DNA of 47,221 nucleotides, taken from assembly GCA_016214075.1 (NCBI GenBank), contig JACRPI010000019.1, forward strand, positions 1 to 47,221, read 5' to 3'. Shown here in pieces: positions 3,925 through 43,213 of the stretch. The DNA is from Candidatus Woesearchaeota archaeon (lineage in GTDB: Archaea; Nanobdellota; Nanobdellia; Woesearchaeales; DSVV01). Position 1 is the stretch's first letter; every line of letters begins with the position of its first letter. The notes under the pieces were generated by a model that was not told where the DNA came from, did not search any database, and saw nothing but the letters and a program-made list of their open reading frames with translations. The translations under genes were made by a program, and so were the position numbers.

Positions 3925-6915
3925 ATGGTATTTGTACTTTCAGAGAAAAGAGTAATAAAAACATGGAGCAATCAAATACATTCATGCTATCCATTCAATA
4001 AGGTAGTTTCTTGGGTTCTGTTGCTGTTTTGTTTATACTTTGCTCTCTTTCTTTTCGTTCTTCCCACAGCGCACGCGGATAGTATTAACACAGCAGCAGT
4101 GGATGGCATTGTCGTGTATCAGGAAGCCGTGGTGCAAACCCCGTTGTATAGAATATGGAATGATTCCAACAAAAACTTTTCAGAGGAAAGAACAAATACA
4201 AACGCTGTCGGCGGACTCATTAATTTTGTTGTTCTTAAAGCAAACCACGAAAGAGATGAAATGATTCTTGGGACAGAGGATCAGCAGGCGGATGTCAATA
4301 TTCAAATTATCAATCAAACAAAGAATTTTACCAATCTTTTAGAGGTTTCAACAAGTGTCGACATAACAAGCACGAGAGGGTTTGATATAGCATATGAAGA
4401 TATTTCCGGGGACGCGCTCATTGTCTATGAGAATAGCGGGACAGTTGACGCTGTTTTTGGCTACAGAATCTGGAATGGAACAGGATATTCTTCTGAAGTG
4501 AATATAACAACGCCTATGTTAGCAGGGACTGGATCGCCTCTTCGCTGGGTTTCTCTTTATCCAAAAAGAAGCAGTGACGATATTATGGTTCTTCTTCATA
4601 ATAACGCAGGCGACCTCTATGCTGTTCTCTGGAACGGAAGTGACTTTGAATTAAATTCAGGGGTGAATCTTTCAATAACAACGACAACCGCGGTCAGCGA
4701 ACATTTTGCTTTTGCGTGGGAAACCGCCAGCGGAGATGGACTTGCGCTCTATGGCACTGGAACAGCTGTTGTACGAAGAAATTATACCTCCGCGACAAAA
4801 ACATGGGGCGCTGAAGAATCTGAAAGTGTTGGAAATGGCATTGATCATTTAACAGTGTGCAGCCATCCAACAAATGATTATGTTGGAATTATTTTTGTTG
4901 ATGGAGGCGCTGACCTTAATGTCAGAATCTGGAATGGAAGCAGAATTTTAAGCAACTCTCCTACAGAAGATGGAACAGTAGAAACAGGCGGAGCAAATAA
5001 CATTAATATAGATTGCGTGTGGAACGGAACAAATGGAAATGTCGCGATTTTTGGGTTTACTGATTCTAATAGCCTTAACCTATCCTACGCTCTTTTTGCG
5101 GTCCAAAATGAAAGCTGGAGCGCCACAACGCTCCTCTCCTCCATTCAAACACAAGATTTCGCAAGCGATGATATTCAGGGTTTAACGTTTACAAAACATC
5201 CAACAACACACGAAATCATGGTTGTCGCTGAGGACTTATTGGAAGATATTACCGCCATTGTCTGGAATGGAACAGGTTTCCAGAATATTTCCGCGTCCCC
5301 TCTCGAAACCAATACAGAAGTTCTCAACGGAGGTCAAAACGGCGTACAATTCGCGTGGTATCAATTTGATCCAGCGCCAAATGTCACTGCCTTAGTAGCT
5401 AATCCAGGAACTGTCCCTGCTGCGGGAATAGTGAACATAACAGTAAACGTGACAGATACTATCGGAGTGGATGTTGTGCTCGTGAATATAACGCACGCGA
5501 ATGGAACAGTGGAGCAGTTTAGAATGACGAATGGAACAGGCGCGACACCACAGTTTTTTAATCTCACTTTTCTAAATACTAATGATCAGGGTAATTTTAC
5601 TGTTGTTATTATCGCGAACGACACAAGCACCCATAAAAATATTAATGATACAGTGCAGACAACGTTCACTGTTGATAGCACAGCGCCAGCGGTCGCTACC
5701 CTTCGCCCAGTTTTCGGTTCAAGCCAGCTCAATGGCAGTGTTATAAATATTAGCGCGACAGTGACTGACGCGTTCCAGAGTGTTGATAGCGTTCGCGCGA
5801 ACATTAGCTACATCAATTGCATTCTTCTTCTTTGCACGACAAAGCAAGAGACATTTCTCCTGCAAAAAGTTGGAAATATCTATAATTATAGTTTCGCAAA
5901 TACCACTGATATCTCCGAATACAATATCACCTTTATAGCGAATGATACAGTGGGGAATTTGAACATCACAGAAAAAACAAACGTGTCGCTGATCAACCAG
6001 GACAATTTCAATCCCTCTCTCACAAGTTTGCGTCCAGCCGCGAATAGTTTCACCGCAAGAAACAGTGTGGTGAATATCAGCGCGACAGTGACTGATAATA
6101 TTGGCATTAGTATAACAGTAGCGAACGTCACCTATCCGAATAACGCCACAACAGAGCAGCTGCTTCTCATCGGCGTTGGCAGCATTTTCAACTACAGTTT
6201 TGGAAACACAAGCAACGAAGGATATTACAACATCACCTTTATCGCGACAGATCTGCTTGGGAACATAAACGCGACAGAAAAAACAAACGTGACTGTGGAC
6301 AGCACTGGTCCTGCTGTCGCGAATGTTCAACCCGTATTGGAATCCACAGAAATCAATGGGACTATCATCAACATCAGCGCGAGAGTCACCGATGAATGGC
6401 TGAATGTTGATATTGTGCTCGCGAATATCACATATCCAGACAATACAACAAAGGAACAGATCCGTTTGCAAAAAACAGGGAACATCTACAATTATAGTTT
6501 CGGCAACACTACACAAAATGGAATTTACAACATCACGTTTATCGCGAACGACACTGCGGGAAATCTTAATTTTACACAAAAAACAAATGTGACTATGGTT
6601 GTACAAGACGTGATCAACCCGGTTGTTACAACGCTGCGTCCAGTTGCGAATAGTTTCACCGCAAGAAACAGTGTGGTGAATATGAGTGCAAATGTGACAG
6701 ACAATGGAGGGATAAATACTGTATTCGCGAACGTCACCTATCCGAATAACGCCACAACAGAGCAGCTGCTTCTCATCAGCTTTGGCAGCATTTTTAATTA
6801 CAGTTTTGGAAACACGAGCGCTGAAGGATATTACAACATCACCTTTACCGCGACAGATCTGCTCGGCAACATCAACGCGACAGAAAAAACGAATGTGACC
6901 GTCGACAGAATCTAA
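3925..6915 (+). CDS. Surface protein with WNG-repeat domain and Ig-like repeats (first part of a frameshifted gene)
   Basis: A 996-residue secreted protein. Residues 28-51 are a signal-peptide hydrophobic core ending AHA, with likely cleavage before Asp52. Residues about 60-480 carry repeated YRIWNGTGY / VLWNGSDF / VRIWNGSRI / IVWNGTGF units, suggesting a beta-propeller-like domain. From about residue 487 come tandem Ig-like domains of roughly 90 residues, each with NISA.VTD...VDIVLANITYP, then YNYSFGNT and YNITFIANDTAGN. N-glycosylation sequons are very frequent. The frame stops at 6913-6915 in the middle of a repeat linker; the sequence continues in another frame from 6899 on (see the next gene), so the intact product would be about 1,630 residues with eight Ig domains. 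It is probably an S-layer-like or adhesive cell-surface protein. Confidence 0.85.
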   Translation: MVFVLSEKRVIKTWSNQIHSCYPFNKVVSWVLLLFCLYFALFLFVLPTAHADSINTAAVDGIVVYQEAVVQTPLYRIWNDSNKNFSEERTNTNAVGGLINFVVLKANHERDEMILGTEDQQADVNIQIINQTKNFTNLLEVSTSVDITSTRGFDIAYEDISGDALIVYENSGTVDAVFGYRIWNGTGYSSEVNITTPMLAGTGSPLRWVSLYPKRSSDDIMVLLHNNAGDLYAVLWNGSDFELNSGVNLSITTTTAVSEHFAFAWETASGDGLALYGTGTAVVRRNYTSATKTWGAEESESVGNGIDHLTVCSHPTNDYVGIIFVDGGADLNVRIWNGSRILSNSPTEDGTVETGGANNINIDCVWNGTNGNVAIFGFTDSNSLNLSYALFAVQNESWSATTLLSSIQTQDFASDDIQGLTFTKHPTTHEIMVVAEDLLEDITAIVWNGTGFQNISASPLETNTEVLNGGQNGVQFAWYQFDPAPNVTALVANPGTVPAAGIVNITVNVTDTIGVDVVLVNITHANGTVEQFRMTNGTGATPQFFNLTFLNTNDQGNFTVVIIANDTSTHKNINDTVQTTFTVDSTAPAVATLRPVFGSSQLNGSVINISATVTDAFQSVDSVRANISYINCILLLCTTKQETFLLQKVGNIYNYSFANTTDISEYNITFIANDTVGNLNITEKTNVSLINQDNFNPSLTSLRPAANSFTARNSVVNISATVTDNIGISITVANVTYPNNATTEQLLLIGVGSIFNYSFGNTSNEGYYNITFIATDLLGNINATEKTNVTVDSTGPAVANVQPVLESTEINGTIINISARVTDEWLNVDIVLANITYPDNTTKEQIRLQKTGNIYNYSFGNTTQNGIYNITFIANDTAGNLNFTQKTNVTMVVQDVINPVVTTLRPVANSFTARNSVVNMSANVTDNGGINTVFANVTYPNNATTEQLLLISFGSIFNYSFGNTSAEGYYNITFTATDLLGNINATEKTNVTVDRI
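6784..6890 (+). repeat. 107-bp direct repeat, copy 1, in surface-protein gene
   Basis: By eye this stretch is identical base for base to 7343-7449, 559 bases downstream. Both encode the FNYSFGNTSAEGYYNITF part of an Ig-like unit. Recombination between them would delete about 559 bases. Confidence 0.85.
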
Positions 6916-6931
6916 TCTCAGCGGCAATGCT

Positions 6932-8806
6932 GTGCTGAACATCAGCGCGGCAGTCACGGATGAATGGCTGAATGTTGATGTGGTGCTTGCGAATATCACG
7001 TATCCAGACAATACAACAAAAGAACAACTGCGGCTTCAGAAAGTTGGAGGAATTTATAATTTTAGTTTCGGCAACACAACGCAAAACGGAATTTACAACA
7101 TCACGTTTATCGCGAACGACACTGCGGGAAATCTTAATTTTACACAAAAAACAAATATCACTGTTGATGGATTGAGTCCAACAGTTATCAATGTGCGTCC
7201 CACTCCAAACAATTTTACTTTTGTCGGAAGTAGAATAAATATCAGCGCCGCAGTCACAGATAATTTGGGAATAAGTACTGTCTTCGCGAACGTGACGTAT
7301 CCAAATAACACCACAAAAGAGCAGTTGCTTCTCATCAGCGTCGGCAGCATTTTTAATTACAGTTTTGGAAACACGAGCGCTGAAGGATATTACAACATCA
7401 CCTTTACCGCGACAGATCTGCTCGGCAACATCAACGCGACAGAAAAAACAAACGTGACTGTGGACAGCACTGGTCCAGCTGTTCGAGATGCAACTCCTGT
7501 AGTGAATACATCCGTAACATTGAATGAAACTGTGAATATTAGCGCGCTTGTGACAGATCTTTTCCTCAGCGTTGATACAGTTCTTGCGAACATAACCTAT
7601 CCCAATGGATCAAAAGAACAACTCCTCATGCAAAAAACAGGAAATATCTACAATTATACATGGACAAATGTGACGCAGTCAGGAGTGTATACAATCACAT
7701 TTATCGCGAATGATAGTTTAGGGAATAGAAATGAAACACAAACAGCTTCTTTTAGAAGAATAACATATAATGAAGATGAGCCTCATTTTGACCTTTTAAA
7801 CAGCGATAATGCGTCTGTTACTTCTTATACGTCTTCGCTCATCAGCAATAACAGTGGGCTTCTCACAAAACAACTGGACTTTTCAAACTTTACATTCTCT
7901 CGAATCCTTATTCTTGATTTTAATGAATCATCGTATAATTCCGTGATGAAAGTGGAAAACGCGACAGTGGACGCTGGATTTAGCAGCACATTCGCGATTG
8001 ATTTCTCAGGCTTAGATTTCAGGAGCGCGAACGTGACAGTCACTGCTGTTGGCGATGAAGTGTACAAATGCGCGAACTTTTCTTTTGACACACGAACCTG
8101 CCTTGGTTCTTATGTCTTTTTGCAAACAGTCGTTCCTGGACAAAATTACACAATAGTACTAAACGCATTAGATCCTGGATTTGGAGAGAAAGTCAGTGAA
8201 TCTGAGCCAAGTCCTGCTCCTGCACAGGAAAAGAGCGCGGCTGCCGCTGGCGGCGGAGCAGGAGGCGCTGGAGGTCTCAATGATCATATTCCATCGACAG
8301 TTGCCGCGCCGGAAATTTCCGCTCCTGACGTTCCTGTATTACCCACAATAAGTATTGAAGTTCCCTTCTTTACCTCAATTGTTCCAAGAGAGGAATCGCC
8401 GCTTGCTGAAAAAAAAGGACTCCTCTCATTAGCTCTTGAAGAGGACGGTATTTCTTTTATGAGAGTACTCATGTATCTTCTTCTTGTTCTGTTTGTTACT
8501 GCGGGGATATTTAGTTTTGTCTCCTTTACAGACATACACGTTTATCGTAAAACGGGGTTTACTGCCCTCCAGCAAGCGCTCATTCCATTTTACATTTTCA
8601 GGGATGCGCTGATGTATGGGTGGATAATACTTCACCATTTGAAAGAAAACATCATTGGTGCGCGTTATCCACATCTTGAAATAAAATTTTTTGTGCGTAT
8701 TACCCTAGAAGAGTGGAAGTTCGCGTTAAAGGAGTGGAGTACGCGAAAAGCGATACTTCTTCCTGTAAAATATAGATTTCTTGAGAAGGTGTTGAGAGTA
8801 GAATGA
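6932..8806 (+). CDS. Surface protein, second part: Ig-like repeats, linker, membrane anchor
   Basis: This is the continuation of the surface protein in a shifted frame (open from 6899; GTG at 6932 is the first possible start codon). It holds three more Ig-like repeats (NISAAVTDEW, NISAAVTDNL, NISALVTDLF), a further beta-rich region, a low-complexity Pro/Ala/Gly linker near residue 430, a transmembrane segment (MRVLMYLLLVLFVTAGIFSF, about residues 510-530) and a basic cytoplasmic tail of roughly 90 residues. It has no signal peptide, so on its own it could not be exported as a surface protein; it makes sense only as the C-terminal half of the preceding gene. The last four bases overlap the start of the next gene (ATGA), indicating translational coupling. 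Confidence 0.8.
   Translation: MLNISAAVTDEWLNVDVVLANITYPDNTTKEQLRLQKVGGIYNFSFGNTTQNGIYNITFIANDTAGNLNFTQKTNITVDGLSPTVINVRPTPNNFTFVGSRINISAAVTDNLGISTVFANVTYPNNTTKEQLLLISVGSIFNYSFGNTSAEGYYNITFTATDLLGNINATEKTNVTVDSTGPAVRDATPVVNTSVTLNETVNISALVTDLFLSVDTVLANITYPNGSKEQLLMQKTGNIYNYTWTNVTQSGVYTITFIANDSLGNRNETQTASFRRITYNEDEPHFDLLNSDNASVTSYTSSLISNNSGLLTKQLDFSNFTFSRILILDFNESSYNSVMKVENATVDAGFSSTFAIDFSGLDFRSANVTVTAVGDEVYKCANFSFDTRTCLGSYVFLQTVVPGQNYTIVLNALDPGFGEKVSESEPSPAPAQEKSAAAAGGGAGGAGGLNDHIPSTVAAPEISAPDVPVLPTISIEVPFFTSIVPREESPLAEKKGLLSLALEEDGISFMRVLMYLLLVLFVTAGIFSFVSFTDIHVYRKTGFTALQQALIPFYIFRDALMYGWIILHHLKENIIGARYPHLEIKFFVRITLEEWKFALKEWSTRKAILLPVKYRFLEKVLRVE
7343..7449 (+). repeat. 107-bp direct repeat, copy 2, in surface-protein gene
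   Basis: Identical to 6784-6890 by manual comparison. A second, shorter exact pair (69 bases, 6520-6588 and 7088-7156) is interleaved with it, so the array has been homogenised at DNA level. Confidence 0.85.
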
Positions 8807-18885: not shown

Positions 18886-19689
18886 ATGACTTCAGATGTA
18901 CGTTGGCGGCTTCTTCCTTTCCGGACTGATGACCCTTACACGTGTATGGCTATTGACAAAACCATCGCGGAATCTGTCGCGGCGGGGGGTCCACCCACTA
19001 TCCGATTTTATCGCTGGAGCGGCAACGGCGCAGTGAGTTATGGTGCATCGCAAAGCATTGCTGACGTTGCAGTTGATTTTTGTCATGATCAGGGAATCCC
19101 TTATGTCCGAAGATTTACAGAAGCAAGAGCGATGTATCACGGATCAACGGATCTGACCTACGCAGTTGCTGCGCCTGTTTCTCTTTATGGGACAAGAGCA
19201 AGTATGGGCATCGTTACTTCGTCAAGAATAATTTCTTTTTTAGAACAAAGGGGTATAAAAAATGCAACCCAAGCAGGGTATACTTCTATTATGGTCAAGG
19301 GGAGAAAAATTTCTGGAAGCGTTCCTTATTTTGAGCAAAAAAAGGCACTTTTTCAACATGGGAGTGTTTTTTGTGAATTGGATTATGAACGTGTCGCGAA
19401 ATGTTACGGAATTTCTGAACAGAAACTTCGAGAGACGACGACTTCTCTTGTGGAAGAAGGGAGTAAATTAGAGAGAATTGAAGATATTTTTCAAAACAGT
19501 TTTTTAAACGCTCATCATTGGGAGTTACAGGAACTTACTGAACAAGAACAAGAAAAGGTATTTCAATTACGAGAAGCTTTTACAGCAGAGGATTGGCTAT
19601 TTGGGGGAGAAAAATCAAGAGGTGCTTGTAGTACGCATTCTGGAATCCCCATTCCACAAATCCTTACCGCGTTTCTCGCAAAAGTATAA
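18886..19689 (+). CDS. LplA-like protein with degenerate substrate-binding motif
   Basis: A 267-residue member of the biotin/lipoate ligase (BPL_LplA_LipB) family. The core order is recognisable: AIDKTIAESVA, IRFYRWSGNGAVSYGASQ, VRRFTEARAMYHGSTDLTYA and VKGRKISGS. In functional LplA the third motif reads RRxTGGGAVYHD; here GGG is replaced by EAR (residues 79-81) and the Asp by Gly, while the catalytic Lys is kept (Lys141). It may therefore bind another acyl group, act as a transferase, or be non-catalytic. It is followed by a separate transcription unit for a standard LplB-LplA pair, which suggests a linked role in protein lipoylation or octanoylation. Confidence 0.75.
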   Translation: MTSDVRWRLLPFRTDDPYTCMAIDKTIAESVAAGGPPTIRFYRWSGNGAVSYGASQSIADVAVDFCHDQGIPYVRRFTEARAMYHGSTDLTYAVAAPVSLYGTRASMGIVTSSRIISFLEQRGIKNATQAGYTSIMVKGRKISGSVPYFEQKKALFQHGSVFCELDYERVAKCYGISEQKLRETTTSLVEEGSKLERIEDIFQNSFLNAHHWELQELTEQEQEKVFQLREAFTAEDWLFGGEKSRGACSTHSGIPIPQILTAFLAKV

Positions 19690-19731: not shown

Positions 19732-20022
19732 ATGGAAAGAAAAGCAGTTCTTAAAGTGCCGAATGGTAAACTTCTTAGAATCACTGCGGATATTGACGAA
19801 ACTGTTCTTGTTTCTGTACAGATCACTGGTGACTTTTTTGTGTATCCTGAAGAATCTATCCTTCAACTTGAACAACTGTTGCGTTATCAGCCGCTTGAAA
19901 AAGATCTTTTGCTCTATATGATTGACGCATTCTTCAAACAAAACAGTGTAGAACTCTTTGGCGTTACAGCAGAAGCAATTAGCGACGCAATCATGCAATG
20001 CACATCGCAGGAGAAAAGGTGA
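19732..20022 (+). CDS. lplB: LplB, accessory subunit of archaeal bipartite lipoate-protein ligase
   Basis: A 96-residue protein matching the small C-terminal/accessory lipoate ligase subunit: RKAVLKVPNGKLLRITADID, VSVQITGDFFVYPEESILQLE and a C-terminal helix pair. In archaea of the Thermoplasma type this subunit is needed with LplA to activate lipoate to lipoyl-AMP. The TGA stop is followed after four bases by the LplA ATG, so the two are translated together. Confidence 0.85.
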   Translation: MERKAVLKVPNGKLLRITADIDETVLVSVQITGDFFVYPEESILQLEQLLRYQPLEKDLLLYMIDAFFKQNSVELFGVTAEAISDAIMQCTSQEKR

Positions 20023-20026
20023 TTTC

Positions 20027-20800
20027 ATGGCTCTGGAAAAAACAAAAATCCGTTTGCTTCTCACTGATTTTAATACGGGTTCATGGAATATGGCTGTTGA
20101 CGAAGCTATTCTTGAAGCTGTTTCCTCAGGTTCGCAACTTCCAACGCTTCGCCTTTATGGATGGTCTCCATCTGCTGTGACTTTAGGATATTTTCAATCG
20201 CTGCATGAAGAGATTGACGCGGCGGCTTGCAAGAGCAATGGGGTGTCTGTGATTCGTCGCATTACTGGCGGTGGCGCGGTTTATCACGATAAAGAAATAA
20301 CGTATAGTTTTATTATTCCTGAAAATTATGGTCTGATCGTGAAAGATATTCTTGCATCGTATAAACAGATTAGTCAGGGAATTATTGAAGGGCTTAAAGA
20401 GTTTGGACTTGATGTCCAATTTGTTCCGCTTAATGATCTTATTGTTTCTGGCAGAAAAATTTCTGGCAACGCGCAGACACGAAAACAGAAGACCATTTTG
20501 CAGCATGGCACTGTTTTGCTTGATGTTGATGTTCGCAAAATGTTTTCTCTTTTAAGAGTTTCCGACGAAAAAATCAGAGACAAAATGATTACCAATGTTG
20601 AAGAAAGGGTAACTTCCTTAAAGCAGCAGCTTGGAAAAGAAGTTTCTTTTATTGATATTCAGAATGCACTTGTGAAAGGCTTTGCGCAAGCGTTTGATGT
20701 AGAATTTGTCGTTTCCACACTTTCCCCTGAAGAACAAAAGCGAGCATTTGTTATTGAACATGAGAAATATGGGAATGAGCAATGGAACGCGATGAGATAA
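20027..20800 (+). CDS. lplA: Lipoate-protein ligase A
   Basis: A 257-residue ligase that attaches lipoate to the E2 or H-protein lysine of 2-oxoacid dehydrogenase or glycine cleavage complexes. Motifs: NMAVDEAILEAV, LRLYGWSPSAVTLGYFQ, VIRRITGGGAVYHD with Gly81-83, and DLIVSGRKISGNAQ with the catalytic Lys144. The ATG at 20027 is chosen for AAAAGGTGAT directly before it, overlapping the lplB stop. It lacks the C-terminal accessory domain of E. coli LplA, consistent with LplB being a separate protein. No lipoylated substrate gene is present in this window. Confidence 0.92.
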   Translation: MALEKTKIRLLLTDFNTGSWNMAVDEAILEAVSSGSQLPTLRLYGWSPSAVTLGYFQSLHEEIDAAACKSNGVSVIRRITGGGAVYHDKEITYSFIIPENYGLIVKDILASYKQISQGIIEGLKEFGLDVQFVPLNDLIVSGRKISGNAQTRKQKTILQHGTVLLDVDVRKMFSLLRVSDEKIRDKMITNVEERVTSLKQQLGKEVSFIDIQNALVKGFAQAFDVEFVVSTLSPEEQKRAFVIEHEKYGNEQWNAMR

Positions 20801-34524: not shown

Positions 34525-35562
34525 CTATCTCGGAAAATATGAAAGATAGTCTTTCGTAAAAACAACTTCTTTCTCAACATTCACAAACTCGTTCTTCCCA
34601 ACTATAACTCTTCCTGGATGATATAGTTCTCTATGAGAAGCAGCGCAACCTACCTGAACTCCAACAGCACAATCTCTAATGACATTTCTCTCCACAATTC
34701 CTGTCCCTCCCCGGATGTTGATGCCAATGATATTCCCTTTTCCCATAATCCTGTTTCCCACAATTGAGAAATTGCCTTGATGGACTTCATGCGTATCAAC
34801 ACACGCAGCAGAATATCTATACCTCGCTGGCGCATCTGGATCAGGAAGTACACCGCACGCTTCAACAACATTGTTCATTAATGTGTAGGAAGTATAGTAG
34901 TCCTGCTTTTTGTCATTGCCTGAGGCTATCGCGTGTTTGCAGTGATAGAAAAATGATTGTGTGACACGAACATGGGCGCCGTTATTGACACAAATGCCAT
35001 AGCCCATGTTTTTTTGTGTCTTTAAATGAGCCAATGAAGTTTTGTTTCGCACATATGGAGATCGACAATCAATCATCGCTGATTCTGAAAATCGTGATTC
35101 TGTCACAATACCGATAGACTCGGCAAACTCCACTAATGCACGGGCAAAAGAACTTACATCACAGCGATACACAAAAACATGAGGAGACGAGCGAACAGCG
35201 ATCCCTGTTGCTTCAATAGCATACGGGTGGGGTCCTTCAAGAGAAAGATGCGCAACAACAACATTTGAACAGCCCCGCAATTGAAGTCCGTTTCCAGAAT
35301 AACGAATAATGGTTGGGTTGTCTTCATCAGCGCTTCCCTGGAAGACAACATCAGAAAGATTTTGAAGAACAATCGGATTTTCTAAAGAAATGCTGCCTGG
35401 TTCCAGATGAATTGTTTTCCCTCTGGAATTTGAAAGAATTTTTTCAAGGGATGGACGAGAGATTGGTAATAGTGCGTCAAGCGGCAGCGAGACGACCGGT
35501 CGTTTGTCAGAAAGAGGGACACGCGGCATATCCTTGTCAGGAAAAGGAACAGTTCTTCTCAT
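34525..35562 (-). CDS. Right-handed parallel beta-helix protein
   Basis: A 345-residue protein whose repeating pattern (NLSDVVFQGSADEDNPTIIR, CSNVVVAHLSLEG, SPHVFVYRCDVSSFARALVE, HVRVTQSFFYHCKHAIASGN, NIIGINIRGGTGIVERNVIR) is that of pectate-lyase/NosD-type beta-helices. Such folds bind or cleave polysaccharides or serve as adhesins. No signal peptide is seen (start MRRTVPFPDKDMPR), so it may be cytosolic or exported by another route. ATG 35562 fits a TATA box 28 bases upstream; ATG 35580 would be too close. It is transcribed away from the PBP operon, after the two anchored helical proteins. Confidence 0.75.
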   Translation of the reverse strand: MRRTVPFPDKDMPRVPLSDKRPVVSLPLDALLPISRPSLEKILSNSRGKTIHLEPGSISLENPIVLQNLSDVVFQGSADEDNPTIIRYSGNGLQLRGCSNVVVAHLSLEGPHPYAIEATGIAVRSSPHVFVYRCDVSSFARALVEFAESIGIVTESRFSESAMIDCRSPYVRNKTSLAHLKTQKNMGYGICVNNGAHVRVTQSFFYHCKHAIASGNDKKQDYYTSYTLMNNVVEACGVLPDPDAPARYRYSAACVDTHEVHQGNFSIVGNRIMGKGNIIGINIRGGTGIVERNVIRDCAVGVQVGCAASHRELYHPGRVIVGKNEFVNVEKEVVFTKDYLSYFPR

Positions 35563-35582
35563 AAAAAGGAAGAAACGCAAAT

Positions 35583-36351: not shown

Positions 36352-36774
36352 TTATTTGAATTCTCTTCTTTTTTCTCTTGTCATCTCTTTTTCAAAGCTC
36401 TTTGCCATAGCGTCAAGCGTCTCTAATTTTCCATCATAGGAAAGCGTGTTGAATCCTGCTGCTAGAACATCTTCTCTTCTTTCTTCGGGAAGTCCTCTGT
36501 ACATTTCTGTGAAAATCTCTCCCTGAACATCGGCAGGAAGACCAGCAATGTACAAAGAAAGATCAGACGTCTCCGGCATTATCTTTTGCTCTTGAACAGT
36601 TATTGTTTCCAGTCCAAATCCAGGGCAGAAATATTCCTGCCCGGCCTTCATATATTCATGCTTTGCGGTCTGATACGCGGCGGTTATCTTGTCGTCAAGA
36701 TTGTAGACCCCTCCAACATAGAGCAATCCTAGCGCCGCTGTTGTTCCGAGAGCAATTCTGGTTATAGTTCCCAT
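36352..36774 (-). CDS. Anchored helical protein, divergent neighbour of the PBP gene
   Basis: About 140 residues from ATG 36774 (MGTITRIALGTTAALGLLYVGG), where a membrane segment starts immediately and GGAGG lies 10 bases upstream. A longer reading from 36846 is possible but puts 24 polar residues before the anchor. The outer part has short helical repeats: LSLYIAGLPADVQGEIFTEM, YRGLPEERREDVLAAGFNTL and DGKLETLDAMAKSFEKEM. A similar pattern occurs in the 330-residue protein downstream of the PBP gene. Function unknown. Confidence 0.65.
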   Translation of the reverse strand: MGTITRIALGTTAALGLLYVGGVYNLDDKITAAYQTAKHEYMKAGQEYFCPGFGLETITVQEQKIMPETSDLSLYIAGLPADVQGEIFTEMYRGLPEERREDVLAAGFNTLSYDGKLETLDAMAKSFEKEMTREKRREFK

Positions 36775-36900
36775 CTCGTTTCTGCCTCCAATATTCTTTT
36801 GAGAAGAAAACAACGAGACATCGCCTTCTTTTTCAGCAAGCACCATTCCCGCTGTTTTCTGTTCTCATACACTATTCTTAGTAGTTGACCGTGCAGTATA

Positions 36901-36934
36901 AACTTATGTTGTAGTAGTCTAGACTACATAAGTT
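36901..36934. promoter_or_regulatory. Nested palindrome between divergent envelope operons
   Basis: AACTTATGT (36901-36909) pairs exactly with ACATAAGTT (36926-36934), enclosing GTAGTCTAGACTAC (36914-36927), itself a perfect 14-bp palindrome. The right arm overlaps a TATA-like TAAGTTAAAGAG (36929-36940) centred about 29 bases before the PBP ATG. A dimeric repressor bound here would block that promoter. The word TGTAGTAG at 36910-36917 recurs upstream of the TrmB-like gene at 46638 and 46701. Confidence 0.6.
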
Positions 36935-36962: not shown

Positions 36963-39203
36963 ATGAACATCAAACAATCTGCCAGCACCGCTGGAAAAAA
37001 ATTGTACACAGGCGCGAAAAGAACTGCGATCGCCGCAACCGCCGCAACTGTTATTGGTCTTCCATTAGAGATTGAATTTGGCTGGATGGAGTATCTCGCA
37101 AGTCACAGCGCAATTGCTATTGCAAACACAACCGCGTATTTCTTTGGCGAGTCGCCAGAGCGACCAACGATCACTCCTTCAGAAATTGAAAAAAGGATTG
37201 ATGCTCGCTTTGATGGCATTAAAGAGAATAGGGATATTATTATCCATGCGGCTGACGGAACAATTATTGGGGAAGAGTATAATCTTACAAAAATTATTCT
37301 TGACGCGCCTTCTCATGTGAAATGGGCGTTTGTCGCGGCAGAAGACAGAAGGTTTTATGATCATTATGGATGGGATCCTGGTTCCACTGCAATTGCTGTT
37401 GCGCAGAATCTTATTGGGAAAATGAGAGGAACACCTGTCTCTAGAGGAGCAAGCACTATCACTATTCAAGTTGCAGATCGTGTTTATCCTAACCAGATAT
37501 ACGGTGGAAAAAATGAGATGGATTCTGGCGCTATCCCTGGCTTCATGAAAATTTCATGGAAAGCAGATGAATGGCTCTCTGCTGCTGTGCTCGAAGAATA
37601 CAAATCCAAGGATCAAATTTTAGTGGATTACATGAACCTAATGGATTTTGGTTATTCTGGACGAGAAGGCACTTCTATTAAAGGAATATATTCTGCTGCG
37701 AAATATTACTTTGGAAAAGAGCCAACAGAACTGGATTATCTTGAATCCGCTTTCCTTGCGGGTATTGTTCAAAATCCTCCTAGAGGTCAACAGGCATACA
37801 ATGCGTTTCTTAAAGGCGATACAGACGCTTCTTCTGTTCAGTGGGCAACTGATAGGACAGAATATGTTCTTAGTAAATTGTATGAACTGAATTTTGGCAG
37901 AGACGATGTTGTTATTCCTGATCGTGAATATACCAAAGCGCTAGAGCGATTAGCGCATCACGATTTTGATTTTAAGAGAAATGAGTCCAAGCGAATTGAT
38001 CCCACTGTTTTTGGATTTACAAGAGAAGTATTTACGCGCGCAGAAGGGTTCATGAGAGAAGCAACACCGCTTTTGCCACAAGACGCGACTGTTCATTTTT
38101 ATACGGGCATTGATCTCGCTGTCCAAACATACGCGCAGGAACAAATGGACAAACAATGCGCTGCCCTCAACAAGACACTTATCGGAAAGGATGGAAAAAC
38201 AAAAAAGGGGTATGAAAATAATCCTTTCAATGGCACAGCCGTTGTTTTAGACACAAAAACACACGATGTTCTCGCAATGATTGATGGGTGCACCACGTAT
38301 AAAAAAGACGCGAATGGAGATTCTCTTCTTGTTGATGGAAAACCAATTCCAGAACTCAATTGGATAAACCGCGCAACTGAAGTATTCTGGGATCCAGGTT
38401 CTTCCATAAAACCAATTTGGGATATGATCGCGTTTAAACATGGCATCAGCGCAACTGACTTTACTCTCAAGGATGAACAGAGAGTTTACATTGTTGATGG
38501 AAAAAGATATACTCCTGGAAACTTTGGAGGAAAACACAGCGGAGAAAAGCTTAATGTGACAGAAGCGACTGTTGACTCCGTGAACAGCTTCTTTATTGAG
38601 CTTGGGTTTCAATTATTCAACATGCTTGGCGAACGACAATTGGTCAAGGAATTTCAATCGTTTGGATATGATATCACAGATTACCAAATCTCTTATGGCA
38701 TTGGCGCGTTTCAGGCGTCCGCAACAGATATTGCGGGAAGTTATACTGTCCTTGAAACAAAAGGTGTCGCGACACATTACAAATATGGATTGAGCGATGA
38801 CATTAACACGCAGTATATCAAAAAAATAGGCATTGACTATACTGTTGACGGTCAAGATAAAACACTCTCTCTTGTTCCCAAAGGAATAGATGACGTTGTC
38901 ACTTCAAAGGATGTTGTTGATAAAACAGATACTATTCTTGATCAGGTTGTGGAACGGGGAACTGGTCAGCGAGCAAAAAGAGTTGACATTGATATTCATG
39001 GAAAAACAGGAACAGCGCATTCTAATGTTATCTTTGTTGGCTACGCTCCGCAAGATGATCTTCTTGCAGTTGTCATGTTTGGCTTGGAAAAACCAGGAAA
39101 AGAGTTGCCGCCAACATATCAAGGAGGAATACATGCGGCGCCCGTTGCTGCGAATATTTTAGAATATACAAAAAAAGAAAGAGGGGTTCAAAATGGGAAT
39201 TGA
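36963..39203 (+). CDS. Class A penicillin-binding protein (GT51 plus transpeptidase)
   Basis: A 746-residue bifunctional PBP. After an N-terminal hydrophobic stretch (about residues 20-60), the glycosyltransferase-51 domain shows motif 1 AAEDRRFYDHYGWD (catalytic Glu127), motif 2 RGASTITIQVADR (usual GGSTITQQ; the first Gln is Ile) and motif 3 KADEWLSAAVLEEYKSKDQI (Glu203), then MNLMDFGYSG and SAFLAGIVQNPP. The transpeptidase domain has all three active-site motifs: S480-S-I-K483 in DPGSSIKP, S539-V-N541, and K681-TGT in HGKTGTAHS. Such enzymes polymerise lipid II and cross-link murein in bacteria. It overlaps the next gene by 11 bases and leads a six-gene operon. In an archaeal context this is very unusual; codon usage matches its neighbours. 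Confidence 0.95.
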   Translation: MNIKQSASTAGKKLYTGAKRTAIAATAATVIGLPLEIEFGWMEYLASHSAIAIANTTAYFFGESPERPTITPSEIEKRIDARFDGIKENRDIIIHAADGTIIGEEYNLTKIILDAPSHVKWAFVAAEDRRFYDHYGWDPGSTAIAVAQNLIGKMRGTPVSRGASTITIQVADRVYPNQIYGGKNEMDSGAIPGFMKISWKADEWLSAAVLEEYKSKDQILVDYMNLMDFGYSGREGTSIKGIYSAAKYYFGKEPTELDYLESAFLAGIVQNPPRGQQAYNAFLKGDTDASSVQWATDRTEYVLSKLYELNFGRDDVVIPDREYTKALERLAHHDFDFKRNESKRIDPTVFGFTREVFTRAEGFMREATPLLPQDATVHFYTGIDLAVQTYAQEQMDKQCAALNKTLIGKDGKTKKGYENNPFNGTAVVLDTKTHDVLAMIDGCTTYKKDANGDSLLVDGKPIPELNWINRATEVFWDPGSSIKPIWDMIAFKHGISATDFTLKDEQRVYIVDGKRYTPGNFGGKHSGEKLNVTEATVDSVNSFFIELGFQLFNMLGERQLVKEFQSFGYDITDYQISYGIGAFQASATDIAGSYTVLETKGVATHYKYGLSDDINTQYIKKIGIDYTVDGQDKTLSLVPKGIDDVVTSKDVVDKTDTILDQVVERGTGQRAKRVDIDIHGKTGTAHSNVIFVGYAPQDDLLAVVMFGLEKPGKELPPTYQGGIHAAPVAANILEYTKKERGVQNGN

Positions 39204-40185
39204 TGAACAAGCAAGATATCAAACAGAAAAACCTGATGGAGAAAATGCAACTCCTAAAAAAACAAGACCACACTGGAGTATTAACAGTATTAAACCAAAA
39301 ACACTAAAAAGAGTAGGGCTCCTTGTGGGGGGAATTCTTGTCGCAGGCGCGTTGATACATTATGTTCCTCAAACACGAATGGCAAGAGCTGCTTCTTCTT
39401 ATTTCACTGCTGCGTTGGAAGCGGTAGGCATTGAAGCAAAAATTACAAATCCCGCAGGCAATTTGGAGGCAGAGGTTAGTGAGGCTCTTGGAAATGTACG
39501 GGAAGTTTTTACGACAAACGCAAATCAAATGCGCGGTGGGATGTACAACCAAGTTATGTTTACTGTGTATGATGATTTTTTGTCTGTAGAAGCACTTTTC
39601 CTCGCAAACGGACGTTCAGAAGAACGACGTGAATACATACAGAAACGATTAGGCAGGGTAGAACTAGAAACACTTCTCGTTGTTTACAGCCAAGTTGCGC
39701 CAAAAGCAGATGTTGTTCAAACAGTAACAGGAATGCAGTCTGTTTTTGATTCTTATCTTGCTAGATCTCTTGATGATCGTACAAGAGGAGCGTACTATCT
39801 TGAGCGCTCTCTCTGGCCACTTACACAGAATCTCCTCAATGAAGAAGGAAAAAAAGCTGTTGCCGCAAAGTTGTATGATACAATGTCTCCAGAATCAATT
39901 GTTGAAACAGCGGTTCCCTACATTACGACGCCACAAGCGCGGGCTCAAACAGTCGAAGCGCTTTTAGGGTCTATGACTCCTGAAGAAAGAGGAACAATGA
40001 TGCAAAGATATACAACAACACTTCCGCAGGCAGAAGTTGATGCTCTTGCTGTTGCACTTGTTCCGTCTATGAGCACAGACGGCTACACACAAGTTAGTGA
40101 CGCCATTACTGACAAAAAAATAGACGCGGGATTTGATAAAGGAAAAGAAGTGCTTGACACTATAAAAGAGTATGTAAAAAATTGA
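39193..40185 (+). CDS. Anchored helical protein of the PBP operon (330 residues)
   Basis: A basic, polar N-terminal tail of about 38 residues precedes one membrane segment (VGLLVGGILVAGALIHYV, residues 41-58); the remaining 270 residues are predicted helical and probably lie outside the membrane. Short repeats recur: SEERREYIQKRLGRVELETL, SMTPEERGTMMQRYTTTLPQ and YDTMSPESIVETAVPYIT. No catalytic motif is seen. AGAGGGG precedes the ATG, and the gene overlaps the PBP gene by 11 bases, so the two are translationally coupled. A scaffold or regulator of the PBP is a reasonable inference. Confidence 0.7.
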   Translation: MGIDEQARYQTEKPDGENATPKKTRPHWSINSIKPKTLKRVGLLVGGILVAGALIHYVPQTRMARAASSYFTAALEAVGIEAKITNPAGNLEAEVSEALGNVREVFTTNANQMRGGMYNQVMFTVYDDFLSVEALFLANGRSEERREYIQKRLGRVELETLLVVYSQVAPKADVVQTVTGMQSVFDSYLARSLDDRTRGAYYLERSLWPLTQNLLNEEGKKAVAAKLYDTMSPESIVETAVPYITTPQARAQTVEALLGSMTPEERGTMMQRYTTTLPQAEVDALAVALVPSMSTDGYTQVSDAITDKKIDAGFDKGKEVLDTIKEYVKN

Positions 40186-40195
40186 GGAAACTCAT

Positions 40196-40546
40196 ATGGA
40201 AAAACAACAATCAAAACGAAGTTTGTATATCGCGGCAGGCATTGTTGGCACTCTCATTATTGGAGGCAGCGCGCTTGCAGTACGTGGTGTGTATTATGCG
40301 GTCACTACTATTGGTTCTGAAATAAAAACCGCATATCAGAAATCAGATGGATCATATGTGCCTTCGCAGTATGTTCAGGCACCTGCGTCAAAGACTCCTT
40401 CAAGGCTTGAGGAAGTTGTGCAACAAGGGGATTGGCTGTTTTCCAATGGCATGACATTTACGGTTGAACAGAGTGATGAAGGAATTGATAACAAGTATTT
40501 TCAATACCTTCCTGAAAAAATTCGAGGTGAGGATAATGGTGGATGA
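40196..40546 (+). CDS. Small single-pass membrane protein of the PBP operon
   Basis: A 116-residue protein with one N-terminal membrane segment (LYIAAGIVGTLIIGGSALAV, residues 10-29) and a short outer domain (TPSRLEEVVQQGDWLFSNGM, TFTVEQSDEGIDNKYFQYLP). TTGAGGAA precedes the ATG, 10 bases after the previous stop. It overlaps the next gene by 11 bases. No family is recognised. Confidence 0.65.
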   Translation: MEKQQSKRSLYIAAGIVGTLIIGGSALAVRGVYYAVTTIGSEIKTAYQKSDGSYVPSQYVQAPASKTPSRLEEVVQQGDWLFSNGMTFTVEQSDEGIDNKYFQYLPEKIRGEDNGG

Positions 40547-41636
40547 AATATCTAAAAATGGACTTGAAGCGCTTCTTCTTTTTGAACGCCAGGAACTCAC
40601 CACAAGAGTTATTGCTGGGGAGTTTGGCGTGCTGGAATCTTTTTACACTCCTTTCGAACAAAGACTTGTCAAACATGCGGAGCTCGCGGATTTCTATCTT
40701 CAGAGAATATTTTCTGGAGTCATCTGGTTGACAGGATATCTCCCTATTATTCACGTTATGGATACAAGTGCACAAACAGCAGAAGGAACAACAGACGATG
40801 CTGCAAAAAATGACGATACGCAACTTGTTTTGAACCCAGATTCTTTGTTGCAAGGTCTTAGCAGTTACTCATCCCTCTCATTAACAACTCTTGTCAAAAC
40901 TCGCGTTAACGCCCATGTCGCGGAAGATTTTTTTCAGCGAAAATATACGCAGCTTGAGAATGGAGAGGCTGCCTGCGCACAGAATCTCGCATCTTTAAAC
41001 AAGAGGATAGAAGACTACGAAAAAAAACAACGGACACTTTTTGACAGGGCGCTTGAAATTAGGAAATCATATGATCAGCGAGAGATAGCGATAGCAGAAT
41101 ATGAAGCAATGAAAAGAGCTTTAGAAGAGGATCATGAATCGTGCAGATTTGCCATCCAATCGTACTCTGATGAAATCTTGTGTAACGCAGGTTTTGAGTT
41201 CGTTACAGATGGTTCAGATTCCACAAGAGATTACGAGACAAACAGAAGATTGCTTCTCGTTATTCAACAGGAGAGTTATGCAACCGCACAGAAATTGCAG
41301 GATGAGCGATCCAAGCTTATAGATGAAAAACGTGATCTTGACTTTCTTGAACAAGCCGCAACTGTCATAACTGCAGGACTCATGGCGTTGTATCAAAACA
41401 GAGAAATGATTCACTCAAATCAAACTCAGATGCAGCATCAGAGACTTATTATTGATCAAAAAAGAGTGACCTACGAAACGTGCGTTGAAATGTATCAATT
41501 TGCTGTCGCTGTTCCAGAGCCAGAAGAATCGAGAACGCTTATCGCGTCCATTGAACAAGGAATTGGAAAACTTCAACAATACTATCGAGAAAAGTTTGGT
41601 TTGGGATCTGGTTCCCAAAATTTAGGGGGGCCATAA
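40536..41636 (+). CDS. Membrane/coiled-coil protein of the PBP operon
   Basis: A 366-residue protein from ATG 40536, with GAGGTGAGG just upstream. A hydrophobic stretch at about residues 57-75 (RIFSGVIWLTGYLPIIHVM) may cross or touch the membrane; the C-terminal two thirds are a long coiled coil (NLASLNKRIEDYEKKQRTLF, KLQDERSKLIDEKRDLDFLE) broken by VITAGLMALYQN. It has a few cysteines and a Gly-rich end. It could link the membrane components to the ATPase encoded two bases downstream; that is an inference from gene order. Confidence 0.65.
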   Translation: MVDEISKNGLEALLLFERQELTTRVIAGEFGVLESFYTPFEQRLVKHAELADFYLQRIFSGVIWLTGYLPIIHVMDTSAQTAEGTTDDAAKNDDTQLVLNPDSLLQGLSSYSSLSLTTLVKTRVNAHVAEDFFQRKYTQLENGEAACAQNLASLNKRIEDYEKKQRTLFDRALEIRKSYDQREIAIAEYEAMKRALEEDHESCRFAIQSYSDEILCNAGFEFVTDGSDSTRDYETNRRLLLVIQQESYATAQKLQDERSKLIDEKRDLDFLEQAATVITAGLMALYQNREMIHSNQTQMQHQRLIIDQKRVTYETCVEMYQFAVAVPEPEESRTLIASIEQGIGKLQQYYREKFGLGSGSQNLGGP

Positions 41637-41638
41637 TT

Positions 41639-43213
41639 ATGTGGAGCTCTCCTCTTTTGCGGAATCTTGAGCGTGATCTTGATCGCGCACGCCAATACGT
41701 TTCTCTTTTGGACGGCATATCTAAAGAAGATCTTGCTTTACGAAGGGAAGATGTCGAAAGAATGCGAACTGCCTATGCCTCGAACACGTATGCAGCAGAA
41801 TTATTTAATCCATATCTTCAAACGCTGCAGCAGAAAGAAAAAACTGCTCCTAAAAAAGCAAAAGAGCACACTCCTACTCTTCCGCATCCTGCTGTTGTTC
41901 CTGAAGTTATTGTCAGAAGAAGACCTTCTGTCTCTGCAGATCACTCTGCTGCGCCTCATGCTTCTCTTGAAGAAATGTCTGGAAATCTTGATGGTATTCT
42001 GGAAGAGATTGATGAAATCAGTTATTTTGCCAACGAAGGTTCACATTCTTCTTCTCAACAGCCTTTACGCCAATCATCAGCCGCTCTTGAAATAGTTGAG
42101 CCTGATCACTTTGTTTTGCCTGCTTCACTTCGCGACTCAAAAATTCTTGAACAGCTTCTTCGCTATTATAACCAAAAAGGCGTTGTTGGTGAAGAGAAGA
42201 ATCTCATTTTGCAAACATTGTGCGTGACAAGCGGCCTTCATTTCTGTTTAAGTGGACCAAGCGGTTCAGGAAAAACAAAAATCATTGACGCGTTAGTCGC
42301 TCTCCTTGATCCTGCCGATATCTACAAACTTGAATTCGCGTCAGAGACCGCGCTCATGAATGATGTGGACAGAATTAACAGTACAAGGATTCTTTATATT
42401 CCCGAGGTACAAAAAGCGTATAGTACAGGTGGACGACAAAAGACCCCAATGATCGCCGAAATCATGAAAGGAATAACTGAAGGAAGAGACGTGACACGAA
42501 GAGTTACTGTTGGGCGCGAAGATGTGCGAGAATATACACTCAAATCAGGACTAACTGTTATTACATCTCTCGCGTTTGAAAATATATTCCATTATGATGA
42601 AGAAACCGCACGGCGTTTCATTGCGCTTGTTACTGACACAACAGAAGAACATAAGGAAGCTGTTCGCCAAGCAAAAGCGAAAAGCGCATTTTACAAAGGT
42701 GATAGTGACGTTGATGTTCAACTGGAAAAAGATCTTCGTATGTATGTTGGCTCTCTTTTACATCACCCTTTTTCTTTGCACATTGCAGATCCATTCGCAC
42801 AAGACGTTGCTTCTTACATTCCACTGACACAGCGTTCCGCAAGTTTTCAAGCGCAATATTACGGGCTAGTTGGTGCGGCAGCGAGATTTAGTCATAATCG
42901 AAGATATGTTGCTCAACTTGATCATGCTTCTTGCGAATCCGCTTCTTCACAAGAGAGAACTGTTTTTGTCAGCATTGAAGATCATCAATTGATTTATGGA
43001 CTTTATCATGATCAAATGCTTGCGAACATGCAGCAGCTTGACAAAACAGAAGGAGATCAAAAGCACGTTGAAATTGTCAGGAAAAAAATAGAAGAGCAGA
43101 ATGGACTTCCCTGGGAAGAGATGATTCATTCAGCACAACAACGCATGACTACATTTTATCCTGCTCACGCAGGCGCATGGGTTGCACAGGAACAAAAAAT
43201 CCAAGGGTCGTAA
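41639..43213 (+). CDS. AAA-like P-loop ATPase of the PBP operon
   Basis: A 524-residue cytosolic protein. Residues 1-160 are helical and low in complexity (Pro/Ser-rich middle). The ATPase core has Walker A GPSGSGKT at 206-213, a Walker B-like RILYIPEVQKA in which Pro255 takes the place of the usual Asp before Glu256, the conserved segment IMKGITEGRDVTRRVTVGRE, a sensor-like LTVITSLAFEN, and ETARRFIALVTD with a possible Arg finger. The layout resembles MoxR-type and helicase/primase-type AAA proteins that remodel partners. There is a two-base gap to both neighbours, and AGGGGGG precedes the ATG. Powering assembly or gating of the membrane proteins is the inferred role. Confidence 0.8.
   Translation: MWSSPLLRNLERDLDRARQYVSLLDGISKEDLALRREDVERMRTAYASNTYAAELFNPYLQTLQQKEKTAPKKAKEHTPTLPHPAVVPEVIVRRRPSVSADHSAAPHASLEEMSGNLDGILEEIDEISYFANEGSHSSSQQPLRQSSAALEIVEPDHFVLPASLRDSKILEQLLRYYNQKGVVGEEKNLILQTLCVTSGLHFCLSGPSGSGKTKIIDALVALLDPADIYKLEFASETALMNDVDRINSTRILYIPEVQKAYSTGGRQKTPMIAEIMKGITEGRDVTRRVTVGREDVREYTLKSGLTVITSLAFENIFHYDEETARRFIALVTDTTEEHKEAVRQAKAKSAFYKGDSDVDVQLEKDLRMYVGSLLHHPFSLHIADPFAQDVASYIPLTQRSASFQAQYYGLVGAAARFSHNRRYVAQLDHASCESASSQERTVFVSIEDHQLIYGLYHDQMLANMQQLDKTEGDQKHVEIVRKKIEEQNGLPWEEMIHSAQQRMTTFYPAHAGAWVAQEQKIQGS

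Follow-up and report, generated by a model that had tools for sequence, protein, structure and literature searches.

The window analysed here, a 47,221-nt stretch that makes up an entire woesearchaeal contig, encodes a 746-aa homologue of class A penicillin-binding proteins (PBPs; positions 36963–39203, + strand) that is real, archaeal and conserved, and of which we found no description in the open literature searched. Class A PBPs are regarded as bacterial murein polymerases, and PBPs in general, the targets of penicillin, are normally bacterial. The fold and motifs of the woesearchaeal protein are of known kinds; its setting and its GT51 (glycosyltransferase) site are unusual. That it serves as polymerase for a murein sacculus which the archaeon itself makes by the known route is very unlikely, because the pathway genes searched for went undetected in the genome and the cationic cage of the GT51 site is lost. 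A text search of open-licence papers retrieved none describing GT51 in DPANN archaea. The protein points either to a new archaeal way of handling bacterial walls or to a new archaeal wall chemistry.

The homologue is a single membrane-anchored chain comprising a hydrophobic N-terminal anchor of moderate hydrophobicity (about residues 21–40; 1.4 Kyte-Doolittle), a GT51 domain (residues 113–287), a linker (288–423) and a penicillin-binding transpeptidase domain (424–734). The Pfam families Transgly (GT51) and Transpeptidase match these two domains with E = 3.6e-34 (118 bits) and E = 1.5e-26 (94 bits), respectively, and in the window the GT51 domain match spans 37299–37802 and the DD-transpeptidase domain 38232–39164 (both + strand). 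In NCBIfam, E-values of 1e-16 or lower (best 1.3e-67) were obtained with several curated models of class A PBPs; the top model is the PBP1A family TIGR02074, for which the score of 228.8 bits lies below the cut-off of 508.75 bits. Structure modelling, which the sequence-only reading had suggested as a check, gave an AlphaFold model with a pLDDT of 85.7 and a pTM of 0.82. When this model was used in a PDB fold search, the top matches were all class A PBPs, led by Staphylococcus aureus PBP2 (E = 2e-23) and followed by Escherichia coli PBP1b and Acinetobacter baumannii PBP1a. Given the NCBIfam and PDB matches, the PBP assignment is far beyond chance.

Alignment with E. coli PBP1b shows complete transpeptidase motifs (S480-x-x-K483, S539-x-N541 and K681-T-G-T684) and the catalytic glutamate pair of GT51, with E127 and E203 corresponding to E233 and E290. 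The coordinates, domains and residues originally proposed for a class A PBP with an intact transpeptidase are thus confirmed, and a profile search found this gene to be the only transpeptidase gene in the genome. With PBP1A-family class A PBPs (TIGR02074; S. aureus PBP2, A. baumannii PBP1a, E. coli PBP1b) the protein shares the anchor, the domain order, the GT glutamates and the SxxK, SxN and KTG motifs, with fold matches at E of about 1e-20 to 1e-23. It differs from them in being only 16–21% identical to the matched structures, in the greater length of the loop that connects GT motifs 2 and 3, in its cage residues, and in residing in an archaeal genome where lipid II synthesis went undetected.

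The changes in the GT51 site concern motif 2 and the cationic cage. Motif 2 reads RGASTITIQVADR, in which the first glutamine of the usual QQ is replaced by I168 and the second is kept (Q169). It had been described as altered both at QQ and in lacking GG; the former stands, while the latter is ordinary, the corresponding stretch of E. coli PBP1b being GASTLTQQ. In that enzyme the lipid pyrophosphate is held in a cationic cage formed by K274 and R286, and alanine at either position abolishes glycosyltransferase activity (PMC6286386). The positions of K274, R286 and K287 are occupied by D172, W199 and K200 in the window protein, two of the three having been lost. The equivalents of K274 and R286 are D/W in the window's genome (G000), D/W in a same-genus genome (G008) and D/H in a sister clade member (G091). 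Among 79 bacterial relatives, a sample skewed to cyanobacteria and obtained with a scan pattern that favours VAAEDRRF, position 274 is R or K in all 79 and position 286 is R in 69. The cage change is specific to this clade and common to its three genomes. Because two residues that hold the pyrophosphate are lost, the GT51 domain is predicted from its sequence to be incapable of ordinary lipid II polymerisation.

The window belongs to a 1.62 Mb genome in 46 contigs (98.1% complete, 1.07% contamination) that carries a full-length archaeal 16S rRNA gene (1450 bits); no RNA genes were found in the window itself. The isoleucyl-tRNA synthetase (IleRS) encoded in the window is 84 and 78% identical to those of two same-genus genomes, and about 48–61% identical, over aligned pieces, to those of other family members. 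That the contig might be contamination or a chimeric join with bacterial DNA is extremely improbable. The normally bacterial occurrence of PBPs would speak for it; against it stand the archaeal IleRS on the same contig and the native codon usage of the PBP gene, which has the smallest distance to the window average among the 21 window genes compared. Neither bacterial markers nor foreign codon usage were found. An ortholog with conserved neighbours also occurs in an independent metagenome-assembled genome (MAG), on contig C129 of G008 (JACRKI010000156.1, Candidatus Woesearchaeota archaeon, groundwater), and a one-contig closed genome, G020, has an archaeal 16S rRNA gene together with a GT51-transpeptidase gene. 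The archaeal context claimed by the sequence-only reading is thus borne out by the 16S rRNA gene, IleRS and the ortholog contig, which, as far as sequence can tell, argue equally against a chimeric or bacterial contig. A mobile origin was considered and rejected, phage records giving only weak matches (24–26% identity) and a scan of viral contigs returning no relative. A recent bacterial donor was likewise rejected: the closest bacterial matches, mostly cyanobacterial and partly so owing to scan patterns that favour VAAEDRRF, are only about 23–37% identical over the best segment.

GT51 is patchily distributed in the order, being present in 18 of 288 sampled genomes, one of them closed, and within the immediate family it was found in G000 and G008 only. 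The G008 ortholog is 48% identical to the window protein and has conserved flanking genes. Across 14 archaeal proteins, the others being 18–48% identical to the window PBP, the invariant residues include E127, D128, Q169, K200, S480, K483, K681, G683 and T684. The persistence of such residues in both active sites at this level of identity indicates that the archaeal GT51-transpeptidase genes are under selection. The two domains are equally well conserved between G000 and G008 (49% identity for GT51, 51% for the transpeptidase), which argues that GT51 retains a selected activity. The proposed GT51 tree with archaeal and bacterial sequences grouped G000, G008 and G091 with support of 100/97. A single archaeal origin was considered and tentatively set aside: this tree, built from only 149 columns and containing many long branches, requires six changes, and starred branches force at least two. 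Family f90, which belongs to a different order of the same class, contributes three genomes (L173, L174 and L175), each encoding one GT51-transpeptidase protein of 819–879 aa with SxxK and KTG-like motifs.

Partner A, a 164-aa protein with an N-terminal hydrophobic stretch (36352–36846, − strand), is encoded divergently from the PBP gene; it matches no Pfam family and has a 35% identical ortholog at the equivalent position in G008. The divergent promoter of the two genes (36897–36934) contains a TATA-like box and a 12-nt inverted repeat, AACTTATGTTGT/ACTACATAAGTT. This operator-like repeat is kept in two species (window 36897–36934; L058:2591–2624), and no second copy was found elsewhere in the window. 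Its left part reads TATAAACTTATGTTGTAGTA in G008 as well, though the PBP proteins are only 48% identical, suggesting that A and the PBP are a co-regulated divergent pair. On the other side, the start of partner B (330 aa, N-terminal transmembrane segment; 39193–40185, + strand) overlaps the PBP stop, and its G008 ortholog lies directly 3′ of the PBP gene, where it is cut by the contig end. Three further ORFs in the PBP direction (+ strand) are putative members of the same group: a small ORF with an N-terminal transmembrane segment (40196–40546), a coiled-coil-like ORF (40464–41636) whose true start is probably downstream of 40464, and a P-loop/AAA ATPase-like protein (41639–43213), whose membership is suggested by a gene order resembling that of the G091 PBP locus. 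The latter has a divergent SLT protein on one side, then proteins of unassigned family and an AAA ATPase. Homology between the window AAA gene and those of G091 was considered and set aside, as only the P-loop was detected and the likeness is one of gene order. The divergently paired gene in G091 (L067:8183–9139) encodes an SLT lytic-transglycosylase domain protein and is itself adjoined by a RuBisCO large-chain gene (6868–8178). Elsewhere in the window, a right-handed beta-helix protein is encoded near the PBP gene (34525–35580). Two ORFs previously read as a split LplA/LplB (18886–19689 and 19958–20800) match each other with E = 3e-21 and are therefore tandem lipoate-protein-ligase-like paralogues.

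Whether the archaeon could supply its own lipid II was addressed with profile searches for the MurA/EPSP, MurC–F, MraY/WecA and MurJ families. PF00275 (MurA/AroA), PF00953 (MraY/WecA) and PF03023 (MurJ) had no match in G000 or G008. MurC–F were likewise not found in G000, in which FolC (359 bits; cut-off 163) is the sole match to the Mur-ligase superfamily; G008 gave one weak Mur-ligase match. The part of the suggested mur-gene search that was run, covering MurA, MurC–F, MraY and the flippase MurJ, thus returned only FolC, and none of the searched murein precursor families was detected in this 98.1%-complete genome. The earlier proposal that the lineage makes a murein-like polymer is accordingly not supported for G000. 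A 2023 survey reported peptidoglycan synthesis genes to be nearly absent in archaea outside the pseudomurein makers (PMC9871819). It is highly improbable that G000 makes murein through genes missed in assembly gaps or by divergence: with 46 contigs and 98.1% completeness about 2% of the genome could be missing, and mur genes do occur in G015, a genome from the same order, but four families are absent together in G000, three of them also in G008, and the same searches detect their targets in control bacteria and, except for MurJ, in G015. The genome does encode four matches to SLT lytic transglycosylases. These are not specific to PBP carriers, since SLT domains occur in 27 of the 29 genomes searched, irrespective of whether a PBP is present.

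We tentatively favour the view that the protein is a functional former bacterial class A PBP that acts outwardly, as a transpeptidase or carboxypeptidase or as a tether, on the murein of partner or prey bacteria. An ancestor of the woesearchaeal clade would have acquired the bacterial gene and retained it as a functional one. The protein would be anchored by its N-terminus and face outward, with an intact transpeptidase site predicted to acylate D-Ala-D-Ala-type peptides. The GT51 domain, with both catalytic glutamates and without its pyrophosphate cage, may merely grip glycan instead of polymerising lipid II. As the archaeon lacks the searched steps of lipid II synthesis, we infer that the substrate is likely exogenous, namely the wall of bacteria that serve as partner or prey, which the transpeptidase domain would cross-link, trim or tether. 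The lytic transglycosylases of the genome could open the bacterial wall, and A and B, membrane proteins that are putatively co-regulated, could assist. The initial reading had offered, as its second alternative, an enzyme adapted to something else, for instance the wall of a host or of prey; this alternative is favoured by the missing searched pathway genes, the lost cage and the four SLT matches. The SLT gene adjoining the PBP gene divergently in G091 also speaks for it. Murein-like lytic transglycosylases (GH23/SLT) of Woesearchaeota and Pacearchaeota, a bacterial-type murein-acting family in the same archaeal group, have already been read as targeting bacterial walls (PMC8204110, PMC9723730). 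Those proteins are lytic, whereas the window protein has a synthase-type fold with a transpeptidase, which none of the papers retrieved describes. The retention of E127 and E203 argues against action on exogenous murein with GT51 as a pure binding module, which would not need them.

The main rival to action on exogenous murein is re-use for an archaeal polymer. Here the enzyme would polymerise and cross-link a non-murein polymer from an archaeal lipid-linked saccharide. The loss of the cage would then reflect another lipid carrier, and the transpeptidase would act either on a stem peptide of another kind or on A and B. This is possible, though on the doubtful side. The GT51 glutamate pair and the transpeptidase triad have been kept over long divergence, the two domains are equally conserved, the cage change is shared across the clade, two membrane-anchored partners are conserved alongside, and GT51-transpeptidase proteins occur in many families of the order and in a second order of the class. 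Against this, neither a lipid-carrier transferase of PF00953 nor MurJ was matched in G000, a candidate saccharide pathway was not identified, and we know of no precedent for a GT51 enzyme that uses another donor. A broader version, in which nanoarchaeal lineages repeatedly captured GT51-transpeptidases and in which this clade converted them to the building or cross-linking of an archaeal surface polymer distinct from both murein and pseudomurein, seems unlikely. Pseudomurein of Methanobacteriales and Methanopyrales is likewise an archaeal peptide-cross-linked wall polymer, but its synthesis uses pMur ligases and an MraY-like transferase, with no GT51 or PBP mentioned (PMC11915815). In G000, pMur ligases were not found, the FolC match lying far below the pMur cut-offs.

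Two further explanations divide over catalysis. The fold might be kept as a scaffold or pseudoenzyme, binding glycan or protein without catalysis as part of a surface complex that also contains A, B and the AAA ATPase encoded downstream. The loss of both cage residues and the conserved neighbours would suit such a role, which we nevertheless consider decidedly unlikely, every nucleophile and base position of the transpeptidase and both GT glutamates being intact. Genes drifting to scaffolds usually lose catalytic positions. At the other extreme, the protein might still polymerise lipid II, using molecules drawn from, or inserted into, the membrane of a bacterial host. Both domains are kept, and the organism is probably host-dependent like other DPANN archaea; the cage residues are gone, however, and their loss abolishes activity in E. 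coli PBP1b (PMC6286386), making this explanation improbable.

Murein-related genes were also observed in other genomes. In G009, of the same genus and without a PBP, a strong MurJ-family match (L178:2750–4312; 222 bits) lies among glycosyltransferase-like genes. PF00953 matches in G009 and G020 were considered as MraY and rejected, their neighbours (an STT3-like gene and sugar-nucleotide dehydrogenase-like genes, respectively) being read by eye as glycosylation genes. G015, an archaeal MAG of the same order (92% complete), has an almost complete murein pathway of bacterial type. MurA, MurB, MurE and MurF score above curated cut-offs there and MurC, MurG and MraY below, while MurD was not found. 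A single contig (L061; C2:8001–28000) carries murA, murB, murG, mraY, murF, a murC-like gene and genes for a FemAB-like protein, a GT51-only protein and a flippase, with murF fused to a C-terminal peptidoglycan-hydrolase-like part. The murE gene is located on a separate contig (L077; C7:14001–31273), beside genes for archaeal topoisomerase VI A/B and archaeal DnaG.
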